Assembly: GCA_021827525.1 (NCBI GenBank)
Contig: JAKAVJ010000004.1
Span: 1 to 36,501 of the forward strand
DNA length: 36,501 nucleotides
From: Microcaldota archaeon
Lineage (GTDB): Archaea; Micrarchaeota; Micrarchaeia; Micrarchaeales; Micrarchaeaceae
Direction of reading: 5' to 3'
Both the position numbers and the translations under genes were made by a program. The notes under the pieces are model-generated. The model had not been told where the DNA came from. It did no database searches and saw nothing but the letters and a program-made list of their open reading frames with translations. Shown piece by piece: positions 27,964-30,037 of the stretch; positions within the stretch are counted from its first letter, which is position 1; each line of letters begins with the position of its first letter.

Positions 27964-28072
27964 ACCACAGCTTTTTCAAAGTAGCCAAGCATTACTATAT
28001 ATTCGAAACAAAAGGGCTAAATACCATAGCTGATAAAGCTATACGTGATGGTTCTAAGCTACGATTAGTTAT

Positions 28073-28209
28073 GGGGTTGTAGCGTAATTTGGCAGCGCAG
28101 CAGGCTCCAGATGTTTATTGTTTTGAAATGAGCTCACGCGATGATTAGGATCTGGAAATACGAACCATGAAGTTACCTGCTGATCTGGGTTCAAATCCCA
28201 GCAACCCCA
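28073..28209 (+). tRNA. tRNA-Trp(CCA) with 64-nt intron
   Basis: Acceptor GGGGTTG/CAACCCC, D arm GCGT..GCGC, anticodon stem GCAGG/CCTGC, loop CT-CCA-G^A, T arm CTGGG-TTCAAAT-CCCAG. Intron 28111-28174 between positions 37/38 (1-nt ambiguity). CCA not encoded. Confidence 0.9.
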
Positions 28210-28259
28210 AACGATGTAATGGTAGAATTGAAGATATTAATAAAGATTGTAGATACAAA

Positions 28260-28763
28260 CTATAGCTTTTTCTCGAAGACTATGAAATAGTCCCTAGTAC
28301 TAAATTTCTTCCTAAGAAAGCTCAATTTGGCTTCTTCTGAGATTTTTATCCTAGTCCGTCCATTTTTATTCTTGATTACTAGCTTCGTTGGTTGCCATCC
28401 ATTCTTTGCATAAAATTTTTCTACTTTGGGGTCTTTGGCAGACCCAGCTGTCAACGTATGCTGCCCCTTGCTCCTTACTTCATTTTCAAACGCACTAAGC
28501 AGTTTAGATCCTATCCCCTTTCTTGCATATCCCTTAGCTAAATCAACGCCAATTCCCCTCAAGTATAGTGATCCATCTCGTAGAGTACCTGGATAGGCTA
28601 TGCCTACCAATTCTTTCCCTTTAAATGCACAGAGATATAACCGCGGATATTTTTTAAAATTCTTCAGAAAAATATCAAAGCTCTCTTTATCCAGATATAC
28701 CTGTTGCATATTATAGAACTCTAAAAGTTCGCTACGCTTTATTGATCGTATTTCCACGGCCAT
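28260..28763 (-). CDS. GNAT family N-acetyltransferase
   Basis: GVDLAKGYARKGIGSKLLSAFENEVRSKGQHTLTAGSAKDPKVEKFYAKNGWQPT is the GNAT acetyl-CoA-binding motif region. Markedly AT-rich codons. Confidence 0.85.
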   Translation of the reverse strand: MAVEIRSIKRSELLEFYNMQQVYLDKESFDIFLKNFKKYPRLYLCAFKGKELVGIAYPGTLRDGSLYLRGIGVDLAKGYARKGIGSKLLSAFENEVRSKGQHTLTAGSAKDPKVEKFYAKNGWQPTKLVIKNKNGRTRIKISEEAKLSFLRKKFSTRDYFIVFEKKL

Positions 28764-28832
28764 ATTATCGCTGTGCTAAATATCAATATATATTCGAATT
28801 CTTTAAGTTTCCAATTCCTATGTTACCTATAT

Positions 28833-28848
28833 ATCCCAGCAACCTCAA
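28833..28848 (+). repeat. Degenerate duplicate of tRNA-Trp 3' end
   Basis: ATCCCAGCAACCTCAA versus ATCCCAGCAACCCCAA at 28195-28210 (15/16). Upstream GTTACCT (28822-28828) also matches 28172-28178, across the tRNA 3' splice site. Confidence 0.75.
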
Positions 28849-28925
28849 CTTATCCTATCAATTGCGCTAAATGGCAATGCAACTAAAACATAGCCCTAAG
28901 TTTCAAGATAATATTATTATCTATT

Positions 28926-29186
28926 ATGTGCCAATTATATGATGATTATACGTATACAACAATTCAAATAACTAAGCAGACTAGGGATAAATTGAATAGA
29001 TTAAAGCCCTATAAAAGGCTGACATACGAAGAGCCGATATCAGCACTAGTAGATCTGATTCCTGAAGGTGACGACGAAGGCAAATACAACCCAGACTTTA
29101 GAATGTCTATACTGCACAGTCTCTTAGATACGGTCCACGGTCGCGTATACACAACCAATGCGGTTAAAAAGCAGCTAAGATTATAG
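28926..29186 (+). CDS. Small RHH/antitoxin-like protein
   Basis: 86 aa; YTTIQITKQTRDKLNRLKPYKRLTYEEPISALVDLIP resembles a ribbon-helix-helix antitoxin N-terminus. AT-rich. Confidence 0.5.
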   Translation: MCQLYDDYTYTTIQITKQTRDKLNRLKPYKRLTYEEPISALVDLIPEGDDEGKYNPDFRMSILHSLLDTVHGRVYTTNAVKKQLRL

Positions 29187-29335
29187 ATCAACTTTCGAAG
29201 TGCAATCATGGTCAGGACGCTTGGTCACAGAAAAAATATTTATGATAACCTCTGATAGCTTCAAATTTCGGTAGCTAATTATGGCGGTCAAAGAAAATAG
29301 CAAGCAATTTATCTTTTGCATTGCTATCCCTCATT

Positions 29336-30037
29336 ATGGAGATGTTCGTCGGCACATCTGGGTGGATGTACGGCTGGAACAAAGGCGGTACTCTTGACTG
29401 GTACGTCGAAAACTCAGGGCTTAACGCAATAGAGCTCAATGCGAGCTTCTACAGGTTTCCGTTCACGAACCAGGTGAAGCATTGGGCTGAAAAGGGAAAG
29501 GGCCTTGCATGGTCCATAAAGGTCAACCGGCTGATAACGCACCAGTACAAGCTTAGCAAAAACTGCTGGCCTGCTATGGAGAAGTTCCTGAGCCTATTCA
29601 AGCCTCTTGAAGGCAGCATACGCTACTACCTCTTCCAATTGCCGCCCTTCCTGACACCGAACATTTTAGACAATGTGGAATCCCTCCTTAAAGAGTTTGA
29701 CATTGCTGACAGATTCGCCATCGAGCCGCGCTCTCCGAGCTGGTTCAATGAAGAGACATTCAAGAGGATTCGCGGGCTTGGCATAACATTCGTGAGCATA
29801 GACTCGCCAATTGGCGTAATAATAAAAAAGACGAACGATTCGATATACCTGAGGATGCACGGGCGGAAGTCCTGGTACAGCTACAATTACAGCAGCAAGG
29901 AGCTTGCAGCGGCAATCGGCAGCATAAGAAAAGAACGCCCCAAAAGCGCATACGTATTCTTCAACAACAACCATGACATGCTTGGTAATGCGAGAATGAT
30001 GAAGAAACTGTCGAATAGTTCAAGCGCTAGGAGATAG
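29336..30037 (+). CDS. DUF72 family protein
   Basis: FVGTSGWMYGWNKGGTLDWYVENSGLNAIELNASFYRFP...WSIKVNRLITHQYKL...YYLFQLPPFL...AIEPRSPSWF are diagnostic of DUF72. Confidence 0.92.
   Translation: MEMFVGTSGWMYGWNKGGTLDWYVENSGLNAIELNASFYRFPFTNQVKHWAEKGKGLAWSIKVNRLITHQYKLSKNCWPAMEKFLSLFKPLEGSIRYYLFQLPPFLTPNILDNVESLLKEFDIADRFAIEPRSPSWFNEETFKRIRGLGITFVSIDSPIGVIIKKTNDSIYLRMHGRKSWYSYNYSSKELAAAIGSIRKERPKSAYVFFNNNHDMLGNARMMKKLSNSSSARR

Follow-up and report, generated by a model that had tools for sequence, protein, structure and literature searches.

A probable single-gene mobile cassette at the 3′ end of a tRNA-Trp gene in Micrarchaeota

We analyzed a stretch of 36,501 nt from a Microcaldota archaeon of the phylum Micrarchaeota (contig JAKAVJ010000004.1, positions 1 to 36,501), referred to below as the window. 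The 3′ end of its tRNA-Trp gene is followed by a 638-bp segment, which holds one GNAT-family acetyltransferase gene on the opposite strand and closes with a near-copy of the tRNA 3′ end. An earlier note, made from the letters of the window alone, had taken this arrangement for a candidate mini-insertion flanked by attachment (att) sites. Genes neighboring the locus had their matches in metagenome-assembled genomes of Candidatus Micrarchaeota. The locus was compared with related genomes, cited here as genome:contig (G001:C31; the window's own genome is G000), and with individual loci, cited by L numbers. The features at the locus are as follows.

28072/28073-28210, plus strand: tRNA-Trp(CCA) gene with a 64-nt anticodon-loop intron (ARAGORN with introns; Rfam tRNA, 54 bits).
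28195-28210, plus strand: left core (attL), the functional tRNA 3′ end, ATCCCAGCAACCCCAA.
28211-28848, no strand: putative single-gene cassette of 638 bp, absent in G001; its last 137 bp recur in G151:C24.
28212-28230, plus strand: left-end arm, CGATGTAATGGTAGAATTG, a 14/17 match to the left ends of other cassettes.
28260-28763, minus strand: intact GNAT-family acetyltransferase gene of 167 aa, the cassette cargo (Pfam PF00583/PF13673).
28775-28798, minus strand: putative promoter-like sequence, TTCGAATATATA, about 25 nt upstream of the GNAT start in a leaderless arrangement.
28802-28848, plus strand: right-end site (attR), TTTAAG-N3-CCAATT-N22-GCAACCTCA, with motif and spacing as in G071, G009, G118 and G047.
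28849-29203, plus strand: chromosomal right flank with an antitoxin-like open reading frame (ORF; 28926-29186) and a toxin-gene remnant, homologous to the flank in G001.

The tRNA 3′ end recurs as ATCCCAGCAACCTCAA at 28833-28848 with 15 of 16 bases identical and a spacing of 638 bp, as the earlier note had seen. A search of the window's own genome (560,715 bp) for the core pattern with ≤2 mismatches returned these two copies only, so the 16-mer is not a common sequence there. In simulated 1-kb sequences of local composition, a 15/16 core match did not arise (0/20,000). The tRNA-Trp gene is 100% identical over 138 bp to those of the two congeners, G001 and G002, and it provides the attachment site (attB/attL) with its 3′ end. 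The note had also counted the heptamer GTTACCT in front of both copies as support. This sequence is indeed present at 28172-28178 and 28822-28828, but the gap to ATCCCAGC is 16 nt in one case and 4 nt in the other, and an alignment of the sites shows that sister cassettes read GTAAAGACC at the second position. The pair is therefore a coincidence and not extended tRNA homology, and the GTTACCT near the distal core is the cassette's own arm sequence rather than a copied tRNA fragment.

The GNAT gene is the sole ORF of note between the core copies; no integrase, transposase or Cas1 gene was found in the 638-bp insert, in keeping with the note's remark that the window lacks an integrase. Its product exceeds the curated cut-off of PF00583 (Acetyltransf_1; E = 1e-7, 32.6 bits against 20.7) and probably acetylates some substrate, although no substrate class reached its NCBIfam cut-off. 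The gene is as AT-rich as the note had described, with a GC content of 0.383 and a GC content at third codon positions (GC3) of 0.371; the 28 long window ORFs used for comparison have 0.509 and 0.630. Of 300 other genomes in the phylum, a single one encodes a protein matching the GNAT protein at E ≤ 1e-6, with 38% identity, and the gene is absent from both congeners. Close relatives were found neither in plasmids and phages nor in viral and genome contigs. The promoter-like stretch is a 79% repeat of the equivalent stretch upstream of a DUF929 gene (27984-28007), and a promoter of its own probably drives the GNAT gene.

On contig C31 of G001, an identical tRNA-Trp gene is followed directly by CTTATCCTATCAATTGCGC..., as is the distal core in the window. 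This is the empty site that the note had proposed to look for in related genomes, and the empty and the filled site together document that DNA was inserted or excised at tRNA-Trp without damage to the tRNA. On a second contig, G001:C16, the window's right flank is instead preceded by other DNA that ends in GGAAACCAGCAACCCCAA, the end of another occupant. The G002 contig breaks off exactly at the tRNA-Trp 3′ end. Contigs ending at this point were noticed in several metagenome-assembled genomes (MAGs; G002:C26:1, G021:C10:12461 and G154:C5:1), and such breaks are expected if a population holds alternative occupants there.

The end of the cassette also occurs in a different context. In G151:C24, from another genus, 127 of 137 bp (93%) are identical to 28712-28848; the match stops at the core and a different flank follows. 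Because this contig starts partway through the GNAT gene, the copy escaped the protein search. Relatives carrying the GNAT gene without the repeat were not seen, and the G151 copy ends at the core. The att-flanked insertion proposed in the earlier note is thus supported by the empty site, by the unique 16-mer and by a cassette end with a different flank in another genus.

Both ends of the insert resemble sequences found behind tRNA-Trp in other Micrarchaeota. The right end follows the pattern TTTAAG..CCAATT-N22-GCAACCCCA, which is also found in G071 (two), G009, G118 and G047; TTTAAG..CCAATT-N22-GCAACC is common to the window and both G071 segment ends with the 22-nt spacing exact. The left end approximates GTAA..G.TAGAATTGG, 16 nt past the tRNA (consensus ACGTAArGTTAGAATTGG, 16 nt after CCCCA), and its 17-mer reads ACCAACGTAAAGTTAGAATTGG in G118, TCCGACGTAAGGTTAGAATTGG in G047, ACCAACGTAAAGTTAGGATTTGG in G116 and AACGATGTAATGGTAGAATTGA in the window. 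Among 105 distinct tRNA-Trp 3′ flanks, only these four score 14-17 of 17, the next reaching ≤11, and a score of 14 was attained by 4 of 2e6 random sequences. A model of six right ends, including that of the window, was searched over 301 genomes of the phylum and gave strong new matches in four of them: two each in G076 and G052, and further ones in G086 and G151. The G076, G052 and G086 matches all share the strand of tRNA-Trp and lie at most 4 kb downstream of it, that in G151 lies at the contig start, and a weaker match in G158 (E = 1e-4) is likewise downstream of tRNA-Trp. Of about 95 regions downstream of tRNA-Trp, 9 contain plus-strand sites according to the site model, 12 in all, and the next best match has E = 0.03.

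The arms are imperfect inverted repeats located 16 and 26 nt from CCCCA and not at the termini; an internal junction in G076 reads CCAATT-N26-CCCCA-N16-AATTGG. No convincing terminal inverted repeats of an ordinary transposon were detected at the insert, and DNA folding revealed no significant attC-like single-strand hairpin at the site (z −0.5 to −1.35). The right-end pattern had 0 matches in viral contigs, and the left-end 17-mer had 8, about the chance number by a rough estimate. A repeated variant of the site, ACGTRAATGAAGCTACCCGGCGACCCCAAACC, was noticed in G028 (L238) at +1135, +1267 and +4156 from the tRNA-Trp end, and is possibly a second subtype of the cassette site.

These sites delimit arrays of one to three cassettes, whose cargo includes Fic, AIM24-like and isochorismatase genes; the window holds one cassette, and tandem cassettes each with a conserved recombination site form arrays in G052, G076 and G071. 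In G071, two tandem single-gene segments lie behind tRNA-Trp, each closed by a tRNA-like repeat. The other contents are listed below, where Fic, AIM24, DUF4143, isochorismatase and CPDase (cyclic phosphodiesterase) are Pfam names, and "PH-like", "IS630-type" and "short-chain dehydrogenase" are readings of the sequence.

G052 array: PH-like and membrane protein, then Fic, then AIM24 and membrane protein, continuing.
G076 array: IS630-type transposase and short-chain dehydrogenase fragment, then AAA/DUF4143, then cyclic-phosphodiesterase-like.
G158 array: Fic, then membrane protein and PH-like, the latter inverted relative to G052.
AIM24 and membrane-protein cassette: G086, G118 and G047, also G052.

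The cyclic-phosphodiesterase-like cassette of G076 starts with the left-end motif directly after a core. All-against-all comparison and DNA alignment revealed cassettes shared across families in changed order and, once, in inverted orientation; the Fic cassette is common to G158, G028 and G052. G118 and G047, which belong to different families, carry the same 1.2-kb cassette with AIM24-like and membrane-protein genes directly behind tRNA-Trp. It is 93% identical from the tRNA to the site, and the DNA alignment found no further match in the 6 kb beyond; a host neighbor protein compared between the same two genera (G007 vs G047) is 41% identical. In genus g5, a flank with a citrate-synthase gene is conserved and the content between this flank and tRNA-Trp varies. 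In G158, a lone Fic gene without an integrase lies behind tRNA-Trp with a repeat at 1349 bp, whose right end is devoid of the CCAATT arm and is taken as supporting evidence only. Conserved terminal sites, tandem arrays and a pool shuffled across families are thus observed, as is movement of the window's cassette, or of related ones, from one genus or family to another, and the pattern is far broader than one locus.

With a probability of roughly four in five, we therefore read the 638-bp segment as a non-autonomous, single-gene mobile cassette inserted site-specifically at the tRNA-Trp 3′ end, one of a family of such cassettes in Micrarchaeota. The locus is integron-like, with a tRNA gene as the insertion platform and no recognized integrase. 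The cassette would probably exist as a circle whose joined ends read CCAATT-N26-CCCCA-N16-AATTGG; the core on the circle would recombine with the tRNA-Trp 3′ end, which is kept intact. Several cassettes could thereby be strung head-to-tail at tRNA-Trp, with their conserved inverted arms at fixed distances from the tRNA-like core. Since integrases sit directly behind tRNA-Trp in several relatives, we infer that a tyrosine integrase acting in trans catalyzes the recombination. More tentatively, the cassettes may be served by a capture system analogous to the integron, made up of a double-stranded site of about 60 bp (CCAATT/AATTGG arms and a tRNA-Trp-like core), the tRNA-Trp platform, a dedicated recombinase in trans and a pool of one- and two-gene cassettes passing between families; we lean slightly against this fuller picture.

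A tyrosine integrase lies within 1.5 kb of tRNA-Trp at 10 of the 96 loci with downstream DNA, and one is found directly downstream in G009, G037, G085, G054, G117, G007, G084 and G089 (PF00589 confirmed in G009). The att-flanked elements span 4694 bp in G009, with the integrase and a methyltransferase-Mrr protein, and 7377 bp in G037, with a 26-bp repeat; in G151, a tRNA-end repeat lies 2844 bp away. Integrases 93-97% identical to each other occur in five genera of the family (L080 in G009, L116 in G001:C6, L117, L118 and L119). This integrase lies in tRNA-Trp in G009 and beside a tRNA read as tRNA-Pro(CGG) in G001, G034, G013 and G159. As the 3′ ends of tRNA-Trp and the tRNA-Pro-like gene are nearly the same, this suggests one integrase with two tRNA targets. 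The G009 integrase had no match in viral contigs. As side observations, the cargo of the G009 element (L080:2805-4268) is an N6/N4 DNA methyltransferase fused to an Mrr-type nuclease domain, and a similar gene adjoins the G001:C6 integrase.

Several points weigh against the cassette reading. None of the integrase loci examined has a CCAATT-type site, so no recombinase is paired with the cassette sites. PF00589 had no match in the window's own genome, which is 69% complete and in which the note had proposed to look for an integrase; the only trace there is a 35-aa C-terminal scrap (L137, G000:C13:4558-4662) about 1.3 kb from a tRNA-Glu gene. The arms of the window are individually weak. In leave-one-out searches, the right end scored E = 8e-4 in about 3 Mb with the tRNA-like core included and E = 0.43 without it, while still being the best place in the window and in the right register; the left arm scored E = 0.003 in 150 nt with a hidden Markov model, also in the right register. 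Because no single score suffices, the membership of the window in the family rests on the register, both ends, the G151 copy and the empty site together. The G151 copy, at a contig start, covers only the right part of the cassette, without the left side or a tRNA context, and nearly all genomes involved are draft MAGs.

Among the other explanations, a remnant of a larger tRNA-integrated element that lost its integrase and all cargo but GNAT fares best, though we consider it unlikely. Integrase elements do occupy tRNA-Trp in relatives, with tRNA-end repeats at the distances given above for G009, G037 and G151. However, the terminal sites of the insert are common to many small cassettes without an integrase, the integrase elements of G009 and G034 have other end sequences, and the G151 copy with the same right end implies that the compact form was not trimmed independently. 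The earlier note had left the choice between a decayed element, one mobilized in trans and a cassette. A cassette mobilized in trans is best supported, given that many cassettes lacking an integrase share these conserved ends and that the gene itself is intact; the decayed element is less so.

It is also improbable that the segment is ancestral and was lost in G001 by recombination between the repeats. This view draws on there being just two congeners, one of them with a contig that stops at the tRNA 3′ end, but the near-absence of the GNAT protein from the other 300 genomes and a GC content unlike that of the neighbors argue against it, and loss or gain alike requires recombination at these sites. 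Far less probable is an insertion of the transposon or casposon type with a target-site duplication of 13-16 bp that merely targets tRNA ends. Casposons are able to hit tRNA ends too, and the inner arms are imperfect inverted repeats. Yet the insert has neither a transposase or Cas1 homolog nor terminal inverted repeats next to a target-site duplication, and its arms are internal to the ends. Moreover, the right core and the host tRNA often disagree in sequence (G118, G047), which is unexpected for a fresh duplication, and array junctions have a single core each in direct order. A lone 15/16 repeat beside a vertically inherited gene could be accidental, but with the simulations and the empty site, which already refutes it, chance is a negligible explanation.

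The cassette reading can be set beside known systems, of which the closest are the additive tRNA-anchored islands of bacteria. In Ca. Actinomarinales, streamlined marine bacteria, tRNA-anchored cassettes with tRNA-fragment repeats are transferred between genera (PMC7771536), and the additive flexible genomic island fGI-2 of Methylophilaceae is marked by repeats of the last 20 bp of tRNA-Lys (PMC10872708). As in these islands, the Micrarchaeota cassettes are small, have tRNA-repeat ends, vary in content between close relatives and cross genera. The islands are bacterial, and the portions seen of both reports describe no conserved end beyond the tRNA fragment; the cassettes described here hold one or two genes, have arms at fixed spacing, belong to DPANN archaea and are found at one and the same tRNA in different families. 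Tycheposons share the tRNA anchor and tyrosine-recombinase-dependent cargo transfer, but are described as 4-200 kb long and as carrying the recombinase (PMC10872708), unlike the window cassette.

Archaeal integrons with IntI and attC, and CALINs (clusters of attC sites lacking integron integrases), are known (PMC9668308), in a paper that mentions neither Micrarchaeota nor tRNA. Like these, the arrays consist of tandem, small, mostly single-gene cassettes with a conserved site at one end and a shared, shuffled pool, often without an integrase. In contrast, a tRNA gene takes the place of attI as the platform, the arms CCAATT and AATTGG belong to a tRNA-like site with no significant single-strand hairpin, and no IntI was seen in these incomplete MAGs. 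Archaeal integrative elements and satellites that target tRNA genes (PMC8371274), including thaumarchaeal integrated mobile genetic elements (PMC6563490), likewise use the tRNA 3′ end as the att site and leave the tRNA intact, and archaeal elements are known to integrate in tandem at a single locus (PMC8371274; PMC6563490). The window has the distal direct repeat, the intact tRNA and the empty site of such elements but not an integrase of its own, and the Micrarchaeota cassettes are only 0.6-1.5 kb long, with one or two genes and without integrase, replication or virion genes.

In the literature library searched, we found no paper joining Micrarchaeota, integrase and tRNA in this sense. What is new here is the archaeal form of tRNA-anchored cassette islands, with one or two genes per cassette, a conserved class of site and integron-like arrays. 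DPANN archaea have tiny genomes, and their routes of gene gain are poorly known. A fixed site that captures and reshuffles single genes between families would be a concrete, testable route of gene gain in this group and would add to integrons a second cassette system based on site-specific recombination. It would also mean that an insert next to a tRNA, although decayed in appearance, can belong to a living system as one of its cassettes.

To the right of the insertion (window 28926-29250; L085:181-540), the antitoxin-like ORF is followed by a truncated RelE-like toxin gene. In the window, a DUF72 gene (29321-30037) separates the antitoxin-like ORF from the RNase P Rpp14 gene; it is missing there in G001 and was not found elsewhere in G001 or G002. 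The RelE-like gene is truncated in both the window and G001, with different cut points. The tRNA-Trp intron (28138-28172) has a 35-nt inverted similarity of 74% to the 5′ end of the GNAT gene (28737-28771), which we judged to be borderline chance, and the intron may hold a box C/D-like guide.
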